From Acidimicrobiia bacterium (GTDB lineage Bacteria; Actinomycetota; Acidimicrobiia; Acidimicrobiales; Aldehydirespiratoraceae): a DNA stretch of 64,000 nucleotides. Below, piece by piece: positions 8,243 through 52,225 of the stretch; position 1 is the first letter of the stretch; every line of letters starts with the position of its first letter. Location: positions 1 to 64,000 of the forward strand of contig JAJEEV010000048.1 of assembly GCA_022820805.1 (NCBI GenBank). The letters are read 5' to 3'. The notes under the pieces were generated by a model. That model ran no database searches, had not been told where the DNA came from, and was given only the letters and a program-made list of their open reading frames with translations. The position numbers and the translations under genes were made by a program.

Positions 8243-9309
8243 CAGATCTCCCGGCGGCTGGTCCTCAGCACAAGCACGAAGAACGGGGCGCCCAGGAACG
8301 CGGTCACCACGCCGATCGGCAGCTCGGCAGGGGCCAGCGCGGTGCGGGCGGCCAGATCGGCCAGCACCATGAACGCCCCCCCGAACAGCACCGACAGGGG
8401 CAGCACGGCCCGGTTGCTGGTGCCGAAGGCGAGTCTCACGGCGTGGGGCACGATGATCCCGACGAAGCCGATGAGCCCGCTCACCGAGACCGCCGCAGCC
8501 GCGCCCAGCGACGCGGCCAGCACCACGATCATCCGCACCCGCCGGGGTTCCAGCCCGAGCGCGGCGGCCTCCTCGTCCCCCACCGCGAGCACGTCGAGGG
8601 CCCGGCGATAGCGCAGCACCACCGCGGCGGTCACCACGAAGTAGGGCAGCATCAGCACCGGCTCAGACCATCCCGAGGTGGCGATGCGGCCCAGGATCCA
8701 GGCGAAGATCTGGCGGAAGGCGTCGCTGTTGGCCTGCAGCACATAGGTCTGGCAGGCGGTCAGGAAGCTGGCCACCGCGATCCCGGCCAGGATCAGCGAC
8801 GCGGTGGAGCGGCCCCCGAGGTGACCGGCCGCGTACGACACCGTCACCGAGATGAGCGCGCCCGCGAAGGCGGCCAGCGGCACCGGGTCGAGCGCGCCGG
8901 CGCCGTCGCCGAGGTTGCTGGTGATGGCGATGGTGGCCCCGAGCCCGGCCCCGGCCGCGATGCCCAGCAGGTAGGGATCGGCCAGGGGGTTGCGGAACGC
9001 GCCCTGATACGCCGCACCGCTCATCGACAGGGTGGCCCCCACCAGCAGCCCCAGCGCCACCCGGGGCAGCCGGATCTGCTCCACGATGGCCGCGTGGGCG
9101 TCGCTCAGGCCCGAGTCGAGCGCGACCCCTGGGAGTGCGTCCAGCAGCTGGAGGACCACCCGGTGGGCGGCGATGTGGACCGGCCCGATCGTCAGCCCGG
9201 CAATCACCGCCACCAAGACTGCGACCAGGCCCGCGATCAGCGACACGGGTCGCAACCCCGAGGCCTTCAGGGCCGTCCCTGCGGCGCCGGCAGGCTGAGG
9301 CTCGGTCAC
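8239..9309 (-). CDS. btuC: FecCD-family ABC transporter permease (BtuC type)
   Basis: LPRVALGLLVGATLSMSGAAYQGAFRNPLADPYLLGIAAGAGLGA. Confidence 0.92.
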   Translation of the reverse strand: MTEPQPAGAAGTALKASGLRPVSLIAGLVAVLVAVIAGLTIGPVHIAAHRVVLQLLDALPGVALDSGLSDAHAAIVEQIRLPRVALGLLVGATLSMSGAAYQGAFRNPLADPYLLGIAAGAGLGATIAITSNLGDGAGALDPVPLAAFAGALISVTVSYAAGHLGGRSTASLILAGIAVASFLTACQTYVLQANSDAFRQIFAWILGRIATSGWSEPVLMLPYFVVTAAVVLRYRRALDVLAVGDEEAAALGLEPRRVRMIVVLAASLGAAAAVSVSGLIGFVGIIVPHAVRLAFGTSNRAVLPLSVLFGGAFMVLADLAARTALAPAELPIGVVTAFLGAPFFVLVLRTSRREIW

Positions 9310-9326: not shown

Positions 9327-10217
9327 TCAGCCCGCGGCGCCGACCGACACCAGCACCCCTGAGACGGCCGCGACGAAGTCCACGAGACGGGGGCCCCAGC
9401 GCGACACGATGTCATCATCGAGCTCGACGATCCGGCCGGCCCGCACCGCGGTCAGCTGGTCCCAGCCGGGCCGGGCCGCCACGGTCTGAGCGTCCTGGCC
9501 GCAGCACAGGGTGTCGGCCAGGAAGATGATGCCGGGGTCGGCGTCCACCAGGTACTCGTCACTGAGCTGCGGGTAGCCCCAGGCGCTGCCGTCGGCGTCG
9601 ACGGGGTCGGCCACGTTGGCCAGCCCGAACAGGCCGTAGACCTGTCCGATGAAGGTTCCGCTGGTGACGGTGTAGAGCGTGTTGTCGAGCTCGTGGTAGT
9701 AGGTGAGCCCGGACGCGTCCGGCGCCGCCGCGACCAGCTCGTCTATCCGGGACCGCATGTCGGTGACCAACGCGGCGGCCTCGGCGTCCTGTCCGGTGAT
9801 CTCGCCGAGCGACTCGATCTGGACGTAGACATCCTCGAACGCGAAGGGCGCGTCATGGGCCCAAACCTCGATGCCGAGGGCCTCGAGGCTCGCGCCCACG
9901 TCGCCGCTGGTCTGCATCAACACCAGATCGGGGTCGTAGGAGGCGATGGCCTCGATGTTGGGGTTCCAGCCGTCGAGATCGGTGACCGGGGCCTCCTCGG
10001 GGTAGTACGAGAACTGGTCGACGGCCACGACCCGGTCGCCCGCGCCGATGGCGAACACCATCTCGGTCGCCGTCGGGGAGATCGACACGATCCGCTGGCC
10101 TGCGCCCTGTGCGTCGTCCGGGGTACCGCTGCACGCGGCCGTCACAATGGCCATCGCGAGCAGTAGCAGCAGGAGCTTGGCCCGCAGCGGGGCCCGCCCG
10201 GTTGAAGTGGTGGTCAT
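9327..10217 (-). CDS. btuF: Cobalamin-type ABC substrate-binding lipoprotein (BtuF type)
   Basis: Signal peptide/lipobox (MAIVTAACSG), RIVSISPTATEMVFAIGAGDRVVAVDQFS; start trimmed to ATG at 10217. Confidence 0.85.
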   Translation of the reverse strand: MTTTSTGRAPLRAKLLLLLLAMAIVTAACSGTPDDAQGAGQRIVSISPTATEMVFAIGAGDRVVAVDQFSYYPEEAPVTDLDGWNPNIEAIASYDPDLVLMQTSGDVGASLEALGIEVWAHDAPFAFEDVYVQIESLGEITGQDAEAAALVTDMRSRIDELVAAAPDASGLTYYHELDNTLYTVTSGTFIGQVYGLFGLANVADPVDADGSAWGYPQLSDEYLVDADPGIIFLADTLCCGQDAQTVAARPGWDQLTAVRAGRIVELDDDIVSRWGPRLVDFVAAVSGVLVSVGAAG

Positions 10218-10435: not shown

Positions 10436-10467
10436 GAGAACCGCGGGGACGGGTTGCTGGCGGGCGG

Positions 10468-12192
10468 TCAGCGACAGATGGGCTCGTAACGGAGGCCCCG
10501 ATCGGCCAGCCGCTCCAGAGCCATGTCCACGCCCTGCACCGTTCGGGAGCGGTCGCCGCCGCCGTCGTGCAGCAGCAGGACGACTCCGGGCCGGGCCCAC
10601 TGCACGATGTGGTCGGCGATCTCCTCGGGCGGGGGACGGAGCCAGTCCTGGGGGCTGGTGTCCCACATCACCAGGGCCAGTCCGTGGGCAGCGGCCCAAT
10701 CCCTGGTGGAGGGACCGACCGACCCGTACGGCGGCCGCAGGCACGGGGTGGCGAGATCAGCCAGGATCGTCTGGGTCCGGCCGACCGTCTCGTCGAAGGC
10801 CGCCCGGGACAGGCCGGCCAAGTCCTCATGTCTCCAGGTGTGGTTGGCGAGAGTGTGACCCTCCGCAGCGATGCGCTGGATGATGTCCGGATAGGCCTGC
10901 GCCAGCCGTCCCACAACGAAGAACGTTGCCCGAGCACCGTGGCGGGCCAGCACGTCGAGCAACTCGGGCGTGTACTCGGCGTGGGGGCCGTCATCGAAGG
11001 TGAGGTACACGACTGCGCCGTCGTCGTCGGGCGTGACCGGCCGGGGCGGTGGCACGATCGGGGCCGTCGTTGTCGTCGCAGGGCTGGTCTCGACCACCGG
11101 AAGCACCTCGATGGTCAACTCGTAGTCGACCTGCCCGGCTTGGGACGAGATCACCGTCACATGCCACAGACCGGTGGCGGGAAGATCCGTCTGCACGAGC
11201 TGTGACCGCTGTGGGGCCGAGGTGACTACCAGATCGTCGAGGCGGGCATCGAGCCACACACCGGGGGGCGCGTCGAGGGTGGCCGTTAAGGGTTGGCCCT
11301 CGGACGCCTGAACGGTGTAGGTCTGCCGCTCGCGGAAATCGATGGACCCGGACTGCACGACGCTGACCGCGCCCGGATCGAACCTGACGTCGATGACGGG
11401 ACGCTCCGGCCCGGGTATCGGCATGTCCTCGATGGGCTGGGTGCCGATCGCCGTGACCTGCGGCTCCCCGGCCGACACGTCGATCTCCAGAACGGTGTGG
11501 GTGGTGATGATCGTGAAGGGCTCGTCCGGCGCCCGGTCGAACAGAGACACCTCGATCAGCCCGTCCCTCACGGAGATGGAGTCCAGGACGATCCGGTCGC
11601 CTACCCATGCGGGCGGTCGGGCCACTGCCGTGCCCTCGTCGTTGATCACCGGCACGATGTAGTGGAAGACGCCGGTTCCCGCCGTGCGCCCGACGATGTG
11701 GGCAACCACGTCCTCGTCGCCGTCGCCGTCGAGGTCGCCCCGGGCGACGGGATCCTGCAGCGTGTAGGTGTCGGCCGAGGCGCCGCCGTGGGTCACGCTG
11801 GCCTGGCCTCCCTCGATTTGCACGGTGTCGCCCGACACCTCGATGGCGAGACGCTGGAGGTCCTCCCACTCGATGGGCCCCGGTTCCGATGGCACCGCGT
11901 CCGGCGGATCCTCGGCCGGTGCGGTAGTGGTGGGCGGCGCGGTAGTGGTGGGCGGCGCGGTTGTCGTGGAGGTCGTCGACGTCGTGGAGGTGGACTGGGC
12001 CGCCGTCGGAGCGGTCGTCTCGGTCGTTGCCGGAGCAGCGTCTGCCGGAGGTGGGGCGGATCCGGACGAACGGGTGCCGCTGCACCCTGAAGCGAGCAGG
12101 ACCAGACCGGCGGTGATCGCAATCGCTCGCGCCCATCGCCGCTGGACCCTCGGGGGCTCGCCGGAGGGCCGCGCCCGCGAGGGGTCAACCAT
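10468..12192 (-). CDS. Secreted polysaccharide deacetylase lipoprotein with Thr/Pro-rich linker
   Basis: Lipobox (LLASGCSG), T/P linker, NodB motifs YLTFDDGPH, NHTWRHEDL, LRPPYGS; start set to ATG at 12192. Confidence 0.85.
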   Translation of the reverse strand: MVDPSRARPSGEPPRVQRRWARAIAITAGLVLLASGCSGTRSSGSAPPPADAAPATTETTAPTAAQSTSTTSTTSTTTAPPTTTAPPTTTAPAEDPPDAVPSEPGPIEWEDLQRLAIEVSGDTVQIEGGQASVTHGGASADTYTLQDPVARGDLDGDGDEDVVAHIVGRTAGTGVFHYIVPVINDEGTAVARPPAWVGDRIVLDSISVRDGLIEVSLFDRAPDEPFTIITTHTVLEIDVSAGEPQVTAIGTQPIEDMPIPGPERPVIDVRFDPGAVSVVQSGSIDFRERQTYTVQASEGQPLTATLDAPPGVWLDARLDDLVVTSAPQRSQLVQTDLPATGLWHVTVISSQAGQVDYELTIEVLPVVETSPATTTTAPIVPPPRPVTPDDDGAVVYLTFDDGPHAEYTPELLDVLARHGARATFFVVGRLAQAYPDIIQRIAAEGHTLANHTWRHEDLAGLSRAAFDETVGRTQTILADLATPCLRPPYGSVGPSTRDWAAAHGLALVMWDTSPQDWLRPPPEEIADHIVQWARPGVVLLLHDGGGDRSRTVQGVDMALERLADRGLRYEPICR

Positions 12193-42559: not shown

Positions 42560-43852
42560 CTAGTCGGCGGGCACGACTCGTTGGGCCTTGCCGGCCGAGC
42601 GGGGAACCTCTCCCGGCTCGACAACCGCCACCTCCCCTGACACGCCGATGCTGCCCTTGATGTGCTCCCCGAGAGCGCTCGCGAGTTCCTCGACAGAGCG
42701 TCGGCTCGCCGGGTCCCGCTCGACCCGCACGGTGAGGGTGGCGAGGTTGGCGGAACGGTCCACGTGGATCTGGAAATGCGGGGTGAGGCCGTCCACCTTG
42801 AGGATCTCGGCCTCGACCTGGGACGGGAACACGTTGACGCCCCGCACGATCAACATGTCGTCGGAGCGGCCCGTCACCCGCTGGATGCGCCTCATCGTGC
42901 GGGCCGTGGGGGGCAGCAGCCGGGTGAGGTCGCGGGTGCGGTAGCGGATCACCGGCTGTCCCCGCTTGGTGAGCGCGGTCAGCACCAGCTCCCCGAAGGC
43001 GCCCTCACCAAGCACCTCGCCGGTGTCGGGGTCGATGATCTCGGGGTAGAAGTGGTCCTCCCACAGCGTCGGGCCGTCCTTGGTCTCCACGCACTCCTGA
43101 GCCACCCCCGGACCCATCACCTCCGACAGCCCGTAGATGTCGACCGCGTCCATGCCCAGGCGGGCCTCGATCTCGGACCGGAGTTCGTCGGTCCAGGGCT
43201 CGGCCCCGAAGATCCCGACCTGAAGCGAGCACGACACCGGGTCGATCCCCTGCCGGACCATCTCGTCGATGAGGTTCAGGCAGTACGACGGGGTCACCAG
43301 GATGATCCGAGGCTCGAAGTCGGTGATCAGGGTCACCTGGCGCTCGGTCAGCCCGCCCGACACCGGCACCACCGTGCATCCCAGCCGCTCCGCGCCGTAG
43401 TGGGCGCCCAGCCCGCCGGTGAACAGCCCGTAGCCGTAAGCCACGTGGGCCACGTCGCCGGGCCGGCCCCCGGCCGCGTAGATCGACCGGGCCATCAGCT
43501 GCGCCCACACGTCGATGTCCCCCGCGGTGTAGCCCACCACCGTCGGCTTGCCCGTGGTTCCCGAGGACGCGTGGATGCGGGCCACCTCGGCACGGGGCAC
43601 CGCGAACATCCCGAACGGGTAGTTGTCGCGCAGATCCGCCTTGGTCAGCAGCGGGAACCGGGCCAGATCCTCGAAGCCGACCAGATCACCGGGAGCGACC
43701 CCGGCGGCCGCGAACGAGCGCCGGTAGTGCGCCACGTGCTCAAAGGCGTAGGCCACGATCTCGCGCAGCCGCGCCAGTTGCAGGCTGCGCAACTCGTCGA
43801 CCGAAGCCCGTTCGATCGGCTCGTAACAGTCGATCTCACCGGTAGTCGTCAT
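42560..43852 (-). CDS. paaK: Phenylacetate--CoA ligase family
   Basis: IHASSGTTGKPTVVGYTAGDID; YGLSEVMGPGVAQEC; GRSDDMLIVRGVNVFPSQVE. Confidence 0.92.
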   Translation of the reverse strand: MTTTGEIDCYEPIERASVDELRSLQLARLREIVAYAFEHVAHYRRSFAAAGVAPGDLVGFEDLARFPLLTKADLRDNYPFGMFAVPRAEVARIHASSGTTGKPTVVGYTAGDIDVWAQLMARSIYAAGGRPGDVAHVAYGYGLFTGGLGAHYGAERLGCTVVPVSGGLTERQVTLITDFEPRIILVTPSYCLNLIDEMVRQGIDPVSCSLQVGIFGAEPWTDELRSEIEARLGMDAVDIYGLSEVMGPGVAQECVETKDGPTLWEDHFYPEIIDPDTGEVLGEGAFGELVLTALTKRGQPVIRYRTRDLTRLLPPTARTMRRIQRVTGRSDDMLIVRGVNVFPSQVEAEILKVDGLTPHFQIHVDRSANLATLTVRVERDPASRRSVEELASALGEHIKGSIGVSGEVAVVEPGEVPRSAGKAQRVVPAD

Positions 43853-43877: not shown

Positions 43878-45242
43878 TTACAAACGTGGGGTCTGAGCGT
43901 GGTGGTCGGTCCTGTGTTGGAAGGCCTCGCCCACGGCCACGAGGGTGCGGTCGGCGAACGGGCGCCCGATGACCTGGAAGCCGATGGGCATCCCGTCGCC
44001 GGCGAAGCCTCCAGGCAGCGCGATGGCGGGCAGTCCGGCCGCGTTGACCGGGAACGTGAACTGTGTCGTGGCCGGGATCAGGGGGACGCCTCCCAGCTCG
44101 ACCGCGCCATGGTCAAGCACCTGGTTGGGGGTGACGGGCGCGACGATCAGATCGACGCCCTGGTCCTCGAACACATCGAGGCAGGCGCGCTCGAAGGACA
44201 TCCGCCGGGCTTGGGCCGCGGCCAGCGCGGTGCCCGGAATCGCGGCGCCGGAGTCCATGATCGCTCGGGGCTCCTCGCCGATGAGCTCGTTGCTCGAGGA
44301 CCGCAGCTCCTCCAGGAGGGCAGCCGACTCCGCGAACACGATGGCGGCGCCCGCGTCGAAGTGCTCCGCAGTGTTCGGCACCCGCACGGTGCGCACCTCC
44401 GACACCACCGATCCGAGCACGTCGACGGCCTCCTCCAGCACCGCCCGAACCTCGGGATCGGTCTCGAACCCCTCGTAGAAGCCGGAGTCGGGCACTCCCA
44501 GCATGAGCCCTGCCGGCGCCTCGGCGCCTGCGAGCGGCGTCTTGGAGGAGTACGGGTCCCGGTCGGAGAATCCGGCCATGACATCGAGCAGTGCCCCGCA
44601 GTCCGCGGCCGTGCGGGCCATCGGGCCGACCGTGTCGTAGGTCCACGAGATGAGGTGGACCCCGTCGCGGGGAACCGCGCCGCGGGTGGTCTTGATGCCG
44701 GTCGTCCCGCAGCAGCTCGACGGGATCCGCACCGATCCCCCGGTGTCCGTTCCCAGCGCCCCGAACACCTGCCGGGCGGCGAGGCCGGCGGCGCTTCCCC
44801 CGGACGATCCGCCCGTCATCCTGGAGGGGTTCCATGGATTGCGGGACGCCGGGCACGACACGCCGTAGGCCAGCTCGTGGGTGTTGGTCTTGCCGATGAT
44901 CACCGCGCCGGCGGCCTGCAGCCGGCTCACGACGGTCGCGTCGTGGTCAGGGGTGAACCCCTCGAGGGCCGCGCAGTTGGCTTCAGTGGGAATGCCCCGG
45001 GTGAAGATCAGGTCCTTGAGCGCGATCGGCACGCCGTGCAGCGGACCGCTCACCCCGCCGCGGTCGAGCCGGGCGGCCTCGGCCAGCGCCCCGTCAGCCT
45101 GCACGGACGCGAATGCGCCGACTGAGGCGTCGGTGTGCTCGATCCGGGCGAGGCACGCCTCCACCAGGTCGGTCGCGGTCACCCTGCCGGCCCTGACTGC
45201 TCCGGCGGCCTCGGTGAGGCTCATCTGTGTCAGCTCGGTCAT
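43878..45242 (-). CDS. Amidase (amidase signature family)
   Basis: MTGGSSGGSAAGLAARQVFGALGTDTGGSVRIPSSCCGTTGIKTTRG (Ser-cisSer-Lys motifs). Confidence 0.93.
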   Translation of the reverse strand: MTELTQMSLTEAAGAVRAGRVTATDLVEACLARIEHTDASVGAFASVQADGALAEAARLDRGGVSGPLHGVPIALKDLIFTRGIPTEANCAALEGFTPDHDATVVSRLQAAGAVIIGKTNTHELAYGVSCPASRNPWNPSRMTGGSSGGSAAGLAARQVFGALGTDTGGSVRIPSSCCGTTGIKTTRGAVPRDGVHLISWTYDTVGPMARTAADCGALLDVMAGFSDRDPYSSKTPLAGAEAPAGLMLGVPDSGFYEGFETDPEVRAVLEEAVDVLGSVVSEVRTVRVPNTAEHFDAGAAIVFAESAALLEELRSSSNELIGEEPRAIMDSGAAIPGTALAAAQARRMSFERACLDVFEDQGVDLIVAPVTPNQVLDHGAVELGGVPLIPATTQFTFPVNAAGLPAIALPGGFAGDGMPIGFQVIGRPFADRTLVAVGEAFQHRTDHHAQTPRL

Positions 45243-45263: not shown

Positions 45264-45950
45264 TCAGATCAACAGCCGCCGGGCGACCCGGGCGGCCAGG
45301 CCGGGGTCCGCGGCCGGTCCGCCGTCGACGACCTCGCCCTTCTCGAGGACGATGAACCGGTCGGCGAGCCGCTTGGCCAGCTCAAGGTGCTGCTCGATCA
45401 GGAGCACTCCCCGCCCGGCATTCCTTGCCGACTCGATGTGATCGCCCAGCAATGCGACATTGGAGGGCTGCAGGCCCTCGGTGGGCTCGTCCATCACCAG
45501 CAGCGGCGCCTCCGTGGCCAGCGCGATGGCGGCGGAGAGCATCTTCTGCTCGCCGCCCGAAAGCGTGCCGGTGCGCTGGGAGCCCCGTCCGGACAGCGCG
45601 GGACCGAACGCGTCCAGTACCCGATGGTGGCTCTCGGAGCCGAAGCCGCTGAGACGGAGGTTGTCGCTGACGGTGAGAGCCCCGAAGAGCGGCCGTTCCT
45701 GGAAGGTCGCCCGCAGGCCTGCCCGTACCCGCCGCGAGGGGGGCAGCCGGGTGATGTCGACGCCGTCGAGGTGCAGTGAGCCGCCGGTGGCTCGCAACAC
45801 GCCCAGGACGGTCTTCACCAGCGTGGTCTTGCCCGCACCGTTGCGGCCCACCAGGGCGACGATCTCGCCGCTGGACACGGCGAAGCTCACGCCGTGGAGC
45901 ACGGGCACCGTTCCGTAGCCGGAGCGCAGCTCGGCGGCTTCGAGGCGCAT
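45264..45950 (-). CDS. livF: Branched-chain/amide ABC transporter ATP-binding protein LivF type
   Basis: GRNGAGKTT, LSGGEQKML, LLVMDEPTEGLQP; ATG at 45950. Confidence 0.9.
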   Translation of the reverse strand: MRLEAAELRSGYGTVPVLHGVSFAVSSGEIVALVGRNGAGKTTLVKTVLGVLRATGGSLHLDGVDITRLPPSRRVRAGLRATFQERPLFGALTVSDNLRLSGFGSESHHRVLDAFGPALSGRGSQRTGTLSGGEQKMLSAAIALATEAPLLVMDEPTEGLQPSNVALLGDHIESARNAGRGVLLIEQHLELAKRLADRFIVLEKGEVVDGGPAADPGLAARVARRLLI

Positions 45951-47683
45951 CAGTCGCCCACTCCCCCGTACACGGCCGCCACTTCGGGGGCGTCCTCGAG
46001 CTCCGCGACGGTGCCATCGGCGAGCAGCGAGCCTCGGGCCAGCACGGTCACGCGGTCGGCGACGGCCCGGATGAACGCCATGTCGTGCTCGACGATCAGG
46101 ACCGGCAACCGGTAGTCGGTGTGCACCTCCCGCAGAAGTTCGGCGGCCGCGAGGCTCTCCGACGCCGTCATGCCGGCCGTCGGCTCGTCCAGCAGCAGCA
46201 CTCGGCAGTTCCCGGCCATCGCCATAGCGATCTCCAGCCACTGCTTGTCGCCGTGGGAGAGGCCCCCGGCGCCGGCGTCGAGGCGTGCGTCGAGTCCGGT
46301 GCGCTCCAGGATCCGCAGCGACGCCTGCGGCACCCGGGCCACCGAGGAGGCGAGGCTCAAGCGCCAGGGAGACGGGTCGGCTCCCCACGCGGCCACCGCG
46401 ATGTTCTCGCCCACCGACAGGGAGTCGATGACCTGGGGCGACTGGAACTTGCGGCTGACGCCGTGACGAGCGAACTCCCAGGCCTTCAGGCCGGTGCAGT
46501 CCCGGCCGAGCATGGTGATGGAGCCGCCCTGACAGGCCTGCTGGCCGCACAGGATGTCCAGCAGGGTGGACTTGCCCGCGCCGTTGGGTCCGATGAGGCA
46601 GCGCAGCTCCGGCTCGTCCATGGTGAGCGTGACCCCGTCGAGAGCTCTGAAGAAGCCGTAGCTCTTGTCCACACCGGTCGCCTCGAACACCGCTGCGGCG
46701 TCACCGGCCGCCGGCAGGGCGGCGAGCAGTCCCGGGTCCCGGCTGCGCCGGGCCGGACGTCCGACCACCCGCAGCAGGCTCGGAACAAGTCCCTCGGGGA
46801 CGAGGGCGACGGCGGCGACGAAGATGGCGCCCGTCGCGAGCGTCCAGTACTGCAGCCACACGTCGGCGAGGGTCGCGGTGGCGAAGTTGATGGCCAGAGA
46901 GCCGACGACCGGCCCGATGATCGTTCCCCGTCCCCCGACGAGCGTCCACAGCACGACATTGGTGGCCAGGGCGAAACCGAAGATCTGCGGCGAGACGAAG
47001 CCGGTCCGGTGCACATAGAGCGCGCCGGCCAGACCGGCGACCGCGCCTCCGACGGTGAACACCCAGACCTTCAGGGCGACGGTGTCGTAGCCGAGCGCCT
47101 CCATGCGACGCTCGTTGTCGCGGACGCCGATGAGCACCGCGCCGATGGGCCGGCGCACAAGCAGACCCACTGCGACGACGACGAGGACCGCCAGGACCGA
47201 GATGAACAGGTCCTGGGCGCCGTCGGACCACTCCGACCCGAACGCGGTGATGCGGGGGACATCGGTAAGGCCGTTGAAGCCGCCGGTCACGTTGCGCCAC
47301 TGCTCCGCGACCTGCTCGAGGGTGAGCGACAGCACAAGGGTCAGCAGCCCGATCACGACCGGCGTGGGGCGGCGCCGGAACGCGGCCACTCCCACACCGG
47401 CTGCCACGGCCGCGCCGATCAGGGTCGCCAGCAACAGCGCCGGCAAGCTGAGAGAGGGTGCGGCGGCCGCGAGACGGGCAGTGGCGTAGGCCGCGACGCC
47501 GAAGGGAAGCAGCTGGCCCAGCGACAGGATCCCCGCGTAGCCCCACACCAGGTCGAGGCTCACCGCCAGGACGGCCAGGCTCAGGAACAGCGACAGCTGG
47601 CCGGCCCGGAAATCGCCCAGCCCGACGCTGGCCGCCGCAACGACCAGGACGGCAACGCCACCCGCACTCAGCGGCCGTTTCAT
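45950..47683 (-). CDS. LivM permease - LivG ATPase fusion protein
   Basis: N-terminal multi-TM LivM (ISLGQ-like SLGQLLPFGVAAY, GVRDNERRMEALGYD), C-terminal ABC domain GPNGAGKST, LSHGDKQWLEIAMAMAG; single frame. Confidence 0.9.
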   Translation of the reverse strand: MKRPLSAGGVAVLVVAAASVGLGDFRAGQLSLFLSLAVLAVSLDLVWGYAGILSLGQLLPFGVAAYATARLAAAAPSLSLPALLLATLIGAAVAAGVGVAAFRRRPTPVVIGLLTLVLSLTLEQVAEQWRNVTGGFNGLTDVPRITAFGSEWSDGAQDLFISVLAVLVVVAVGLLVRRPIGAVLIGVRDNERRMEALGYDTVALKVWVFTVGGAVAGLAGALYVHRTGFVSPQIFGFALATNVVLWTLVGGRGTIIGPVVGSLAINFATATLADVWLQYWTLATGAIFVAAVALVPEGLVPSLLRVVGRPARRSRDPGLLAALPAAGDAAAVFEATGVDKSYGFFRALDGVTLTMDEPELRCLIGPNGAGKSTLLDILCGQQACQGGSITMLGRDCTGLKAWEFARHGVSRKFQSPQVIDSLSVGENIAVAAWGADPSPWRLSLASSVARVPQASLRILERTGLDARLDAGAGGLSHGDKQWLEIAMAMAGNCRVLLLDEPTAGMTASESLAAAELLREVHTDYRLPVLIVEHDMAFIRAVADRVTVLARGSLLADGTVAELEDAPEVAAVYGGVGD

Positions 47684-48534
47684 ACAACCGCTCCGGCCGG
47701 GGTGGGGCGCCGGAACTGCAGCACCAGCACGGCCAGGGCCAGCGATGCGATCTGGGCCCACACCGCGTCGTAGAAGTGGATGACGCCGGTCTGGACCGCG
47801 GCCACCACGAACGCTCCCGCGGCCACACCCCAGAGCCGGTTGTAGCCGCCGACTATCACCACGAGGAAGGCGCCGGGAAGGTAGGCGAGCCCGGCCTGGG
47901 GCTCGACCGCGCCGAGCGGCGCCACCAGGGCTCCCGCGATCCCGGCGGTGGCCGCGCCCACACCGAACGCGCAGAGGTTGGTGACTCCCGTGCGGATTCC
48001 CGCCGACTCGGCCAGATCGCGATCGGCGACGATCGCCCGTACGACGAGACCGAAGCGGGACCGGGTGAACGCGAGCAGGGTGGCCGCCACGACCCCCGCC
48101 ACGATCACGATGAGCAGGTATCGGTACGTGGGGAACAGGACGCCGAAGGCCCTGGTGGCCCCCGGCACGGGGTTCGGGACGCTCTGGAAGTCCTTGCTGA
48201 ACACGAGCTCGGCGATCTGTCGCAGGCACACCGACAGCCCGAAGGTGGCCAGGATGGTCAGCTCCGGCCGGCGGTGGATGCGCCGGATGAGACCCACCTC
48301 GATCACCACGCCGACAACGAACAGCACGACCGCGGCCAGGGGCAGGCTCAGCCAGTGGCTGAGTCCGTTGGTGTGCGCGACGTAGGCCACGTAGGCGCCG
48401 AGCATGACGAACTCGCCGTGGGCGAGGTTGATCACGCCCATGAGACCGAAGACGATCCCGAGCCCGAGCGCGACGATTGCGAGGATCGCGAAGAGGCTGA
48501 CGCCGTTGAGCAGTTCGAGTGTCAGCGCGTCCAA
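47680..48534 (-). CDS. livH: Branched-chain/amide ABC transporter permease LivH type
   Basis: GLGIVFGLMGVINLAHGEFVMLGAYVAY; GVRAIVADRDLAESAGI-like motif. Confidence 0.92.
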   Translation of the reverse strand: MDALTLELLNGVSLFAILAIVALGLGIVFGLMGVINLAHGEFVMLGAYVAYVAHTNGLSHWLSLPLAAVVLFVVGVVIEVGLIRRIHRRPELTILATFGLSVCLRQIAELVFSKDFQSVPNPVPGATRAFGVLFPTYRYLLIVIVAGVVAATLLAFTRSRFGLVVRAIVADRDLAESAGIRTGVTNLCAFGVGAATAGIAGALVAPLGAVEPQAGLAYLPGAFLVVIVGGYNRLWGVAAGAFVVAAVQTGVIHFYDAVWAQIASLALAVLVLQFRRPTPAGAVV

Positions 48535-48646: not shown

Positions 48647-50077
48647 TCAGGCCGGATCGCAGGTCTCGTCGGGCTCCACCGACGGGAACGACTGCACGAT
48701 CAGCTGGGAGCCGTCCTGTTGGATCTCGGCCACGTAGATCGGCTGAGCCAGATGGCGGCTGCCGGTGATGGTGATCTCGCCGGTCGGTGTGGTCATCGAC
48801 AGCCCCTCCATGGCGGCCGCCACCGCGGCGGTGTCGGTGGTCCCGGCTGCGTTGGCCGCGGCCGCATACAGCAGCGCGGCGTCGTAGATGTGCGAGCTGA
48901 ACGTCATGTGGGGCGCGGCGTCGGCTCCGAAGCGCTCGAAGTAGCGGGCCACGAAGTCGTTGTTGAGGGCGCTGTCCACCTCCTTGAAGTAGCCCAGCGT
49001 GACCCGCATGCCTGCGGTGACCGCCGGTCCCATGGCTCCGAGGACGTTCTCCTCGTAGATGTTCGCCAGGCGCGGGATGGCGTCCTGGCCGATGCCGAAG
49101 TCCACGGCCTGGGTCTCGAATGCGATGGCGTCTCCACCGACCAGCGCCGGGAAGATCAGGTCGGCGCCGGATCCGGCGATTATCTGCGCCACCGACGAGA
49201 AGTCCTGGGTGCCCAGCGGGACGTACTCCTCGCCGACGACCTCGCCGCCCGCGGCCTCGATGTACTGGCGGGCCCACTCGAAGCTGCGCCGGGGCCACAC
49301 GTAGTCGTTGCCGAGCAGGAACCAGCTCCGGCCGCCGGTCTCCTCCATCATCCACGGGATGACCGGAGCCAGCTGCTGGCTGGGCACCTCGCCGGTGTTG
49401 AACATCACCGACGAGCACTCGCCGCCCTCGTAGAGGGCCGCGTAGATGTAGAGGACGTCGGCGTCCTCCGCGAGCGGCTTGGCAGCCTGGCGGGTGGCGC
49501 TGGAGTGGGTTCCGAGGACCACGTGCACGTTGTCGGAGTCGATCAGCTGCTCCATGGCCTGGCGCCCCACCGCGGGATCGGTGGCGTCGTCGGCCAGGAA
49601 CGTCTCGACGGGACGGCCGTTGATGCCCCCGGCGGCGTTGATGTCCTCCTCGATCAGCTCCGAGATGTTGGCTGTGGGCGGTCCGAAGACGCCGGCCGGG
49701 CCGCTGTTGGAGAACAGGATCCCGATCCGCACCGGCTCACCCGAGGGCGCAGCCGGCTCCTGGGCCTCTGCGGTGTCGGTGGGCTCCGGCTCGGCGGGAG
49801 CCTCGGTGGGCTCCGGCTCGGCGGGAGCCTCGGTCGTCTCCGGCTCGGCACCCTCCGGCTCGGCGGGAGCCTCGGTGGTCTCCGGCTCGGGCGCGTCGGT
49901 CGAGTCGCTCGGTTCAGCGGCGTCCGCGTCGGCCGCGGCCGGCGCCGCTGGAGCTGGAGCCTCCGTGTCGTCGTCGCTGTCTCCGCAGGCTGCGGCGACC
50001 AGCGCAAGCAACGCCACGAGCGAGGCCGCGAGCCATAGACGAGACCGCGAGCGGGAGTCCGGTACTGTTCTCATCAC
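48647..50077 (-). CDS. Amide/urea-type ABC substrate-binding lipoprotein with Glu/Pro/Ala repeat linker
   Basis: ALVAAACGDSD lipobox; EPTEAPAEP repeats; IGILFSNSGPAGVFGPPTANISELIEEDINAAGGINGRPVE; WFLLGNDYVWPR. Confidence 0.88.
   Translation of the reverse strand: MMRTVPDSRSRSRLWLAASLVALLALVAAACGDSDDDTEAPAPAAPAAADADAAEPSDSTDAPEPETTEAPAEPEGAEPETTEAPAEPEPTEAPAEPEPTDTAEAQEPAAPSGEPVRIGILFSNSGPAGVFGPPTANISELIEEDINAAGGINGRPVETFLADDATDPAVGRQAMEQLIDSDNVHVVLGTHSSATRQAAKPLAEDADVLYIYAALYEGGECSSVMFNTGEVPSQQLAPVIPWMMEETGGRSWFLLGNDYVWPRRSFEWARQYIEAAGGEVVGEEYVPLGTQDFSSVAQIIAGSGADLIFPALVGGDAIAFETQAVDFGIGQDAIPRLANIYEENVLGAMGPAVTAGMRVTLGYFKEVDSALNNDFVARYFERFGADAAPHMTFSSHIYDAALLYAAAANAAGTTDTAAVAAAMEGLSMTTPTGEITITGSRHLAQPIYVAEIQQDGSQLIVQSFPSVEPDETCDPA
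49778..49831. repeat. 27-bp in-frame tandem repeat (2 exact units, degenerate copies continue to about 49890)
   Basis: GGTGGGCTCCGGCTCGGCGGGAGCCTC at 49778-49804 and 49805-49831. Confidence 0.85.
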
Positions 50078-50108
50078 AAAGCCCTCCTATATGTGAGCAG
50101 TTATTGAC

Positions 50109-50137
50109 ATATTGTCGGATAGGAGGGGCGCGGTCAA
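50109..50137 (-). promoter_or_regulatory. Candidate sigma70-like promoter for the SBP gene
   Basis: Minus-strand TTGACC (50137-50132) - 17 nt - CAATAT (50114-50109); palindrome GACA-TAT-TGTC at 50106-50116 overlaps the -10. Confidence 0.5.
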
Positions 50138-50183: not shown

Positions 50184-51623
50184 CTAGGACGCTTGGGTGG
50201 CGGCGGGGAGTTCGTCCAGGACCCGGACGCCCGACGCGGTGGCCTCGCCCAGCAGCAGGGACTCGAGGCGTCCGCCGCGGGCGCAGCGACGGGGACCCTT
50301 GAAGCTGGACTTGCGCAGCCCGCTGAGCAGCGCGGTGGGATCGGTTCCCCCGCCGGCCCGGCACGAGCGGGCCCAGGTGTGGATCGCCTCGTACACGCCC
50401 TCCGCGGCCGCCGACACGGGCGGGGAGCAGGAGCCGAAGCGGTCGGCGTAACGGCGCAGGAACTCCCGGTTCTCCGAGGTGTCGAGGGCCACGAAGTAGC
50501 CCAGCGCGTTCCAGGTTCCCTCGCCGGACTCGCCGAGATGCTCGACGACGGCGTCGTCCATCAGCGGTGCGAAGGTCCGGATGCTCTCTCGGAGGCCGTG
50601 AGCGGCGAAGTCGCGCTGGAAGCAGACATGGTCCTGCCCGACGAAGCTCGACACGACATGGTCGACCCCGCTTCGCTGGATGGCGGCCAGTACCGGCTCG
50701 AAGGTCTGTGATCCCAGGGGCAGGTAGCCCTCGCCGGCGACGTGGCCGCCCATGCGCTCTATGACAGCCCTGGCGGTGGCGCCGATCGCTCGGGGCCACG
50801 AGTAGTCGTTGCCGGCCAGGAACCAGCGCGATCCGCCCGTCTGCGCGGCCATGCGGGGCAGGGCCCGGTGGAGTTGGTCCAGCGGTGTCTCGCCGAAGCG
50901 CACCAGCAGCGGGTGCGGCGCGGTCGGCTCGCTGGTCGGGGTGTACAGGTAGGGGATGCCCTCCGCGACCGCCATGGGGGCCGTGACCGCGTAGGTGGCC
51001 GACGAGTGCATGCCGACCACCGCGGCCAGGCCCGGCGTGCGGCTCAGACGGCGCATGGCGATCGCGCCGACCCCCGGGTCGGTGGCGTCGTCGGCGACGA
51101 CGAGCCGGACGTTGCGGCCCATCACTCCCCCGTCGGCGTTGATCTCCTTCACCGCCAGCTGAGCGCAGTTCACCGTCGAGCGGCCCAGGATCCCGGCCGC
51201 GCCCGACAACGAGATGAGCAGCCCGAGAGGCACCTGCCGCAGTCCGGCCTCGTAGCCGTCGAGCAGGCCCAGCTCAGCGCCGAGACGAGCCACCTCGCCG
51301 TCGTCGATCGTGATGCGGACCCGCAGCCGCGTGCCTCCGGTGTCGAGCGGGTCGAAGCGGCACACAACCCGGCCTGCCCACGGGGTCTCGTGGATCAGGT
51401 CGATGCGGCGGTTCGGCTGGTACGACAGCACCCGGGCGGTGCCCGGCGAGCGGGCCAGCCCCCCGAGGGGGAGGGCCAGGCGGACCAGCGAACCGGGCCT
51501 CAGCCGCGGTGCCTCGGCTCCGAACAGCCAGCCCAGCGACGGATCGCCGCTGCCGAACAGCGCGAACAGCTCGCTCGGGCCGACCGCCAGCTGCGTCTCG
51601 TTGTTGAGGACGAGCTCACCCAT
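50184..51623 (-). CDS. SRPBCC/AHSA1-like domain fused to AmiC/UrtA-like periplasmic-binding-protein fold; no signal peptide
   Basis: N-term MGELVLNNETQLAVGPSELFALFGSGDPSLGWLF... (SRPBCC-like); C-term VPLGLLISLSGAAGILGRSTVNCAQLAVKEINADGGVMGRNVRLVVADDATDP...WFLAGNDYSWPR. Confidence 0.8.
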   Translation of the reverse strand: MGELVLNNETQLAVGPSELFALFGSGDPSLGWLFGAEAPRLRPGSLVRLALPLGGLARSPGTARVLSYQPNRRIDLIHETPWAGRVVCRFDPLDTGGTRLRVRITIDDGEVARLGAELGLLDGYEAGLRQVPLGLLISLSGAAGILGRSTVNCAQLAVKEINADGGVMGRNVRLVVADDATDPGVGAIAMRRLSRTPGLAAVVGMHSSATYAVTAPMAVAEGIPYLYTPTSEPTAPHPLLVRFGETPLDQLHRALPRMAAQTGGSRWFLAGNDYSWPRAIGATARAVIERMGGHVAGEGYLPLGSQTFEPVLAAIQRSGVDHVVSSFVGQDHVCFQRDFAAHGLRESIRTFAPLMDDAVVEHLGESGEGTWNALGYFVALDTSENREFLRRYADRFGSCSPPVSAAAEGVYEAIHTWARSCRAGGGTDPTALLSGLRKSSFKGPRRCARGGRLESLLLGEATASGVRVLDELPAATQAS

Positions 51624-51633
51624 GACAGCGGGA

Positions 51634-51996
51634 TCAGGCGCTGCGCTCTTCGGCCCGGTCGGAGGGGGCCTCCCCCGCCGCGGAGGCGTCCTGCACGGCT
51701 GAGGCCAGCTGCTCGAGTGAGTTCTGGTACACGGAGGTCAGGAAGGCCACCACCGCGTCCGCCGGGGTCGGCGTGACCGAGTAGTGCCTGAAGCGACCGT
51801 CGCGACGCTCCGACACCAGTCCGGCGAGACGCAGAATCCGCAGATGCGACGACACCGCGGTACGGCCCAGGGTGTCGAAATGGGCTGCGATCTCGCCCGC
51901 AGCGAGCTCCTCATGCTCGCCGATGAGGCTGAGGATGGCTCGACGCGTGGGATCGGCAAGCGCTGAGAAGATGGCATCGCTGTCAGAAGGAGACAT
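51634..51996 (-). CDS. ArsR-family winged-helix transcriptional regulator
   Basis: IFSALADPTRRAILSLIGEHEELAAGEIAAHFDTLGRTAVSSHLRILRLAGLVSERRDGRFRHYSV. Confidence 0.92.
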   Translation of the reverse strand: MSPSDSDAIFSALADPTRRAILSLIGEHEELAAGEIAAHFDTLGRTAVSSHLRILRLAGLVSERRDGRFRHYSVTPTPADAVVAFLTSVYQNSLEQLASAVQDASAAGEAPSDRAEERSA

Positions 51997-52225
51997 CGCC
52001 GCTCCCGTGTCGGCTTGTCAATACTTGCGCACACATCGTGCCACACCGGCGCGGGGCGTGTACATCCTCACCGGCCCGACCCCACCGCCGGCGAGCCGCG
52101 ATCGCAGCCGGCCGGAGTCTCCACCTGCCACGGGCTCGGCGGATCCGGCGCGGTATATTGCTGCCCCTACCCTGGCTGATCGCGATCAGACCAGCGTCAA
52201 CTGCCTCCTCGCGAGGTAGGAGTCC

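Follow-up and report, generated by a model that had tools for sequence, protein, structure and literature searches.

The window, by which we mean the whole 64,000-nucleotide stretch of Acidimicrobiia DNA that was analysed, contains a run of genes that all lie on the minus strand and follow one another, in the order of transcription, as an ArsR regulator, an SRPBCC–PBP fusion, an SBP, a UrtB-like permease, a UrtC–UrtD-like fusion, a UrtE-like ATPase, an amidase and PaaK. The regulator (51634–51996) is an ArsR/SmtB-family repressor of 120 amino acids (HTH_20, 3.2e-11; HTH_5, 1.8e-9; NCBIfam HTH_metalloreg above its cut-off) and the proposed NhlD-like partner of the fusion protein, which is encoded by an open reading frame of 479 amino acids at 50184–51623. 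These coordinates, and the position of the ArsR gene directly upstream on the same strand, agree with the initial annotation of the locus. The SBP gene (48647–50074; Peripla_BP_6, 5.7e-94) is UrtA-like and its product carries a lipoprotein-type leader (LVALLALVAAAC, LVAAAC), as expected of the secreted transport component previously placed downstream of the fusion. It is followed by a UrtB/LivH-like permease (47680–48534; BPD_transp_2), a UrtC- and UrtD-like permease–ATPase combined in one protein (45950–47683), the ATG of which at 47683 overlaps the urtB stop, and a UrtE/LivF-like ATPase (45264–45950; ABC_tran) with a probable ATG at 45950, so that gene ends overlap from urtB through urtE. 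The importer genes are closest to the models of the urea transporter UrtABCDE, but all score below the curated NCBIfam cut-offs (UrtA, 252 against 493 bits; UrtB, 225 against 250; UrtD, 233 against 304), and the operon has an amidase in place of urease. This amidase-signature hydrolase (43878–45242; Amidase, 5.7e-101) retains the motifs of the Ser-Ser-Lys family (Lys76, GGSSGGS and GSVRIPSS), and its best NCBIfam model is indoleacetamide hydrolase, at 293 bits against a cut-off of 532. The phenylacetate-CoA ligase gene PaaK (42560–43852; TIGR02155, 668 bits, above the cut-off of 646) begins 25 bp past the amidase gene and occupies the same position in three related loci (L037, L038 and L039). 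The gene after the amidase belongs to the PaaA/PaaC family in two others (L046 and L049), and a Rieske aromatic hydroxylase/oxygenase (L041) or an oxidase (L054) stands beside the pair instead of PaaK or Paa genes in two more; the window genome has its PaaA/PaaC-family genes on a different contig.

The fusion comprises two domains and its repressor is a separate protein, for which reason the earlier label of a one-module sensor is misleading. Its start codon lies 10 bp past the ArsR stop, right at strand 1 of the SRPBCC domain, and the translation start is conserved among relatives. The protein therefore lacks a signal peptide, as had been claimed; an overlooked one was ruled out, the room upstream being too small. 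Compared with relatives, dN/dS is 0.08–0.20 for the N-terminal domain and 0.08–0.13 for the PBP half, the latter being the lower in four of the five comparisons made. Purifying selection acts on both halves, so neither is decaying. The N-terminal SRPBCC domain (residues 1 to about 120; 51264–51623) is weak by sequence. Residues 1–129 gave no Pfam match above threshold, Polyketide_cyc2, a model of the SRPBCC superfamily, reaching E = 0.048, and the AHSA1 model PF08327 gave none above threshold with this domain. Among nine isolated N-terminal domains three matched Polyketide_cyc2 (best 1.1e-5), with scores below the curated cut-off, and the homologue from genome G602 matched it at 1.5e-4 as a whole protein. 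A profile search of PDB sequences with the N-terminal domain returned no useful match, and fold comparison was therefore used. In the AlphaFold model of the domain (pLDDT 78, pTM 0.73) the predicted elements run strand–helix–helix–five strands–helix, the arrangement of a helix-grip fold, with a short C-terminal helix. The best PDB matches of this model in Foldseek were SRPBCC/AHSA1/START/Bet v 1-type proteins, with structural-genomics entries among them (best E = 8.8e-6, probability 1.00; TM-scores moderate, 0.43–0.59), and ligand-bound structures occur among these neighbours. By predicted structure the fusion clearly begins with an SRPBCC fold, which upholds the original assignment of this domain.

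The remainder of the fusion is a PBP type I domain of the UrtA/AmiC-like kind (residues 130–445; 50289–51236), for which Pfam gives a Peripla_BP_6 match over residues 131–445 (E = 1.6e-73). Among solved structures, urea-binding proteins from Caldicellulosiruptor, Prochlorococcus and Synechococcus match it best in both sequence and fold, and AmiC with amides comes next; the structure model of the whole fusion is of moderate quality (pLDDT 72). AmiC/UrtA-like motifs are retained (GNDYxWPR; the invariant Ser208, Tyr274 and Trp276), and the complete AmiC/UrtA-like fold described from the sequence alone is thus confirmed. The PBP half and the downstream SBP share 37% identity (E = 2e-59), including both of the sequence blocks quoted when their kinship was first noticed. 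That kinship had been explained by capture of a duplicated transport SBP. In a PBP tree of 51 rows (L026 was left out, its sequence being too short), the PBP halves of the fusions all group in a single clade (support 100/99), whose sister (98/93) is made up of cytosolic, bare AmiC-like PBPs of other actinobacteria together with a Pleomorphomonas plasmid protein. Outside both groups stands a further clade (100/97) of the secreted SBPs adjoining the fusions, except that of locus L055, which is placed elsewhere; AmiC itself is a long branch whose placement is unsure. Since the fusion PBPs have a clade of their own and the neighbouring SBPs fall outside it, the tree indicates a single, ancient origin of the fusion, and local duplication or recent capture of the neighbouring SBP is not supported. 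A MarR gene adjoins all nine AmiC-like proteins checked by hmmscan (L026–L032, L074 and L061; the scan did not include L033). These MarR-linked proteins, which we take to be of the NhhC/NhhD type, resemble the fusion in being cytosolic PBPs encoded beside a DNA-binding regulator, but MarR replaces ArsR and the SRPBCC domain is absent. Domain composition thus appears to track the partner across the tree, bare PBPs going with MarR and SRPBCC–PBP fusions with ArsR. At L061 (5294–12855, on the Pleomorphomonas plasmid) a MarR gene, a bare AmiC-like protein, a second AmiC-like/SBP gene, a Liv transporter and an amidase are found together, with urease genes adjoining; the layout is a MarR version of the arrangement of ArsR, fusion, importer and amidase.

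A scan of 84,980 species genomes yielded 19 orthologues, which come from metagenome-assembled genomes labelled Acidimicrobiia or its families, the two exceptions carrying the labels Acidobacteria and simply "bacterium". The ArsR gene lies 9–12 bp upstream of the fusion in 20 of 20 loci of the Acidimicrobiia type and directly upstream in every full-length homologue elsewhere, namely L056, L079 and those on the Rhodococcus and Paenarthrobacter plasmids, so that the linkage proposed from a single locus is fixed. Linkage to transport and hydrolysis genes holds as well. Wherever the locus sequence is long enough, amide/urea-type importer genes and an amidase follow the pair or, in two loci (L038 and L039), are divergent from it. 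In L045 (7094–12765) and L047 (4308–10721) about 6 kb of other DNA lies between the SBP gene and urtB–urtCD–urtE. L055 is a second pair in genome G265, which also holds L053; its importer and amidase are different, only about 30–40% identical, and three operator-like sites occur there (8458–8485, 9608–9635 and 11517–11544). Outside the class, a full-length pair in G602 (L056) has an acyl-CoA ligase as its next gene, and one in G1069 (L079), an actinobacterial genome of another class, stands divergent from SBP–urtB–urtCD–urtE–amidase, its amidase scoring 506 against the cut-off of 532 for the indoleacetamide hydrolase model. Full-length pairs on Rhodococcus plasmids and on a Paenarthrobacter aurescens TC1 plasmid accompany nitrile hydratase and amidase genes. 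The pair is rare: besides the window genome, it occurs in one of 397 sampled genomes of the phylum and in one of 395 in the class of G543. The ArsR–fusion pair is old, and we propose from these distributions that it is probably a transferable amide switch of Actinomycetota.

The pair had been put forward as a new sensor. In R. rhodochrous, however, the same two-gene arrangement, with homology along its whole length, precedes genes for nitrile hydratase and an amidase: strains BAA-870 and BX2 have the order ArsR, fusion, nthB, nthA, accessory protein, cobalt transporter and amidase. We take this to be the order of the low-molecular-mass nitrile hydratase cluster of strain J1 (nhlD, nhlC, nhlB, nhlA, nhlE, nhlF and amdA). 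The regulators of that system in R. rhodochrous are the subject of Komeda et al. (1996, J Biol Chem 271:15796). There nhlD, which is ArsR/CadC-like, is reported to act negatively, and nhlC, which is AmiC-like, to be needed for induction by amides. Both in the window and in BAA-870 the ArsR gene is followed directly by the AmiC-like gene; the window fusion and its Rhodococcus homologue are 36.8% identical over residues 3–445 and fall in one clade of the PBP tree, and a palindrome is present at both promoters. Because the Rhodococcus gene order matches the nhlD–nhlC cluster, we infer that the Rhodococcus proteins are NhlC and that the window pair is probably a variant of the NhlD/NhlC regulators. 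The SRPBCC half of NhlC has, to our knowledge, not been described previously. The systems differ in their targets, which in the window are an ABC importer, an amidase and PaaK rather than nitrile hydratase; no nitrile hydratase genes occur in the window cluster. Nitrile hydratase beta- and alpha-subunit genes lie on another contig of the same genome (C23, 141898–142440; L071, 7137–8459), among an AmiS/UreI-like channel, two lyases and an AllG-family gene, with the ArsR–fusion pair absent. We do not claim that they belong to the same regulon, the best site before the beta-subunit gene scoring only 6.4. AmiC of Pseudomonas aeruginosa, through which amide input is received (PMC3369936), serves well as the functional analogy drawn at the outset: it is a cytosolic PBP-fold amide receptor without a signal peptide, it controls an amidase operon and it is among the nearest solved structures to the PBP half, albeit with only about 24% identity. 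AmiC has no SRPBCC domain, however, and its partner AmiR is an RNA-binding ANTAR antiterminator, whereas the partner gene in the window encodes an ArsR repressor.

A conserved palindrome resembling ATGTCA-N8-TGACAT, newly reported here, stands in front of the target operon as well as the ArsR gene in genomes ranging from Acidimicrobiia to Rhodococcus. In the window a matrix scan places it before the ArsR gene at 52011–52038 (CGATGTGTGCGCAAGTATTGACAAGCCG on the minus strand) and before the SBP–importer–amidase operon at 50087–50114 (CAATATGTCAATAACTGCTCACATATAG on the minus strand); CAATATGTCA-N8-TCACATATTG or a close variant stands before the SBP gene in nearly all Acidimicrobiia loci. The matrix is symmetric, was built from seven distinct Acidimicrobiia sites before the SBP gene and was applied to sequences outside this training set. 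The SBP-promoter palindrome is the best site of the 64 kb, at 46 bits (44.7 with its own sequence type left out of the matrix), and the ArsR-promoter palindrome is the second best, at 10.6 bits (11.4 with that sequence type left out), the next unrelated site scoring 4.1 (5.3 with it left out). Further afield, the ArsR and nthB promoters are the two best sites of L058, the acyl-CoA ligase and ArsR promoters the best of L056, and the three best sites include the amdA–nthBA and ArsR promoters in L057 and the amidase–nthBA and ArsR promoters in L059. Column-shuffled matrices equalled the scores of the real sites 0–2 times in 60. At the L060 ArsR promoter the matrix fails, and it performs weakly in L079, where, as judged by eye, both promoters have a different variant in common. 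In a genome-wide pattern scan the SBP-promoter site was the only ATRTSA-N8-TSACAT with zero mismatches among the matches listed; matches with two mismatches were numerous (77 forward, compared with 10 for the reversed control), and therefore only the single zero-mismatch site was counted. The palindrome sits where the promoter of the SBP gene is expected, with TTGACC about 17 bases before it. These sites argue strongly that, in several genera, the two promoters answer to a single DNA-binding protein, for which the linked ArsR is the simplest candidate.

From the architecture, the predicted folds, the conserved gene pairing, the palindromes at both promoters and the clade structure, we propose, with a probability of roughly 0.68, that ArsR and the fusion form a switch of the NhlD/NhlC type responding to amide inside the cell, in which ArsR repression is relieved by the amide-bound fusion protein. 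ArsR would repress its own promoter and that of the importer–amidase(–PaaK) operon through the conserved palindromes. The fusion would stay in the cytosol, where its UrtA/AmiC-like half would close on imported amide; ligand binding would then alter the contact between SRPBCC and ArsR such that ArsR leaves the DNA, and the derepression that probably follows would raise import and hydrolysis until the amidase removes the signal. As a phenylacetate-CoA ligase follows the amidase, and PaaK or PaaA/PaaC-family genes do so in several relatives, the ligand favoured for the window lineage is phenylacetamide or a similar arylacetamide, an assignment that we make tentatively and at somewhat short of even odds; simple amides or urea derivatives are possible signals too. 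The gene pairing of AHSA1 with ArsR, together with the PBP tree, suggests that the SRPBCC half is the part that would contact the ArsR dimer. That pairing, invoked when the locus was first described, does recur as a background pattern in this order: across 13 related genomes, nine of 12 AHSA1 genes have an ArsR gene within about 500 bp on their own strand. Such pairs resemble the present one in that an SRPBCC protein is encoded directly with an ArsR regulator, and differ in that they have no PBP and that PF08327 falls below threshold for the fusion N-terminal domain. The SRPBCC half might even be a dedicated adaptor linking the sensor to ArsR, amide-binding PBPs with MarR partners being bare and those with ArsR partners carrying SRPBCC; we regard this as an arguable possibility that is somewhat more apt to be wrong than right. 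If true, it would explain why stand-alone AHSA1/SRPBCC genes are so frequent beside ArsR genes, and docking of ArsR by the SRPBCC half would supply a mechanism for the widespread ArsR–AHSA1 pairs and a modular means of coupling binding proteins to ArsR repressors. In two of the nine ArsR-adjacent cases (G1149, C42, 65733–66419; G1150, C53, 1589–2266) the ArsR and AHSA1 domains are apparently one open reading frame.

The roles of the two halves could also be reversed, with the SRPBCC half holding the effector, for instance a hydrolysis product or an aryl-CoA, and its pocket releasing or recruiting ArsR, while the PBP half only tunes the response or stores amide. SRPBCC folds are cups that often bind ligands, as in the ligand-bound Foldseek neighbours, and AHSA1 genes pair with ArsR without any PBP. 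We nevertheless consider the reversal unlikely, given that the PBP half is overall the more constrained in dN/dS, that it keeps its AmiC/UrtA-like motifs and that a PBP by itself presumably suffices for regulation in the MarR-linked sister proteins. A different division of labour, in which the fusion acts as activator or co-repressor, aiding DNA binding by ArsR without amide or making ArsR an activator, would accord with the constant co-encoding of the two proteins, and the sequence data fit either direction of the effect. The position of the palindrome at the expected SBP promoter is repressor-like, however, and the reported genetics, negative for nhlD and with nhlC needed for induction, run against it, so that we hold this very improbable.

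ArsR might, finally, be an ordinary metal sensor and the fusion merely a co-transcribed cytosolic amide buffer. ArsR/SmtB proteins mostly sense metals, and in Rhodococcus a cobalt-sensing ArsR protein, CblA, controls a nitrile hydratase (PMC7689651). The window ArsR and its Acidimicrobiia orthologues, however, contain no cysteine at all and few histidines. They therefore have no thiolate metal site: the cysteine site of metal-sensing ArsR/SmtB proteins is absent, and His-only sites are possible. The targets in the window lineage are not metal genes, moreover, and ArsR remains paired with the fusion in different classes and gene contexts, which makes metal sensing a highly improbable account. 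For a regulator pair known mainly from industrial nitrile-hydratase strains, the preferred reading of an amide switch supplies an architecture open to testing, together with target sites and a candidate class of ligand; the palindromes predicted here lend themselves to direct experiments in Rhodococcus.

Further operator-like sites were seen on two plasmids. On the Paenarthrobacter plasmid (L057) a strong site lies past the fusion gene at 10461–10488; resolvase-like fragments come next, on the opposite strand, and the target gene of this site may have disappeared. The R. pyridinivorans 4-4 plasmid (L060, 1747–2155) carries a second, closely similar ArsR gene with no fusion beside it, which has an operator-like site of its own (2128), and another such site (1164) precedes a CoA ligase gene.
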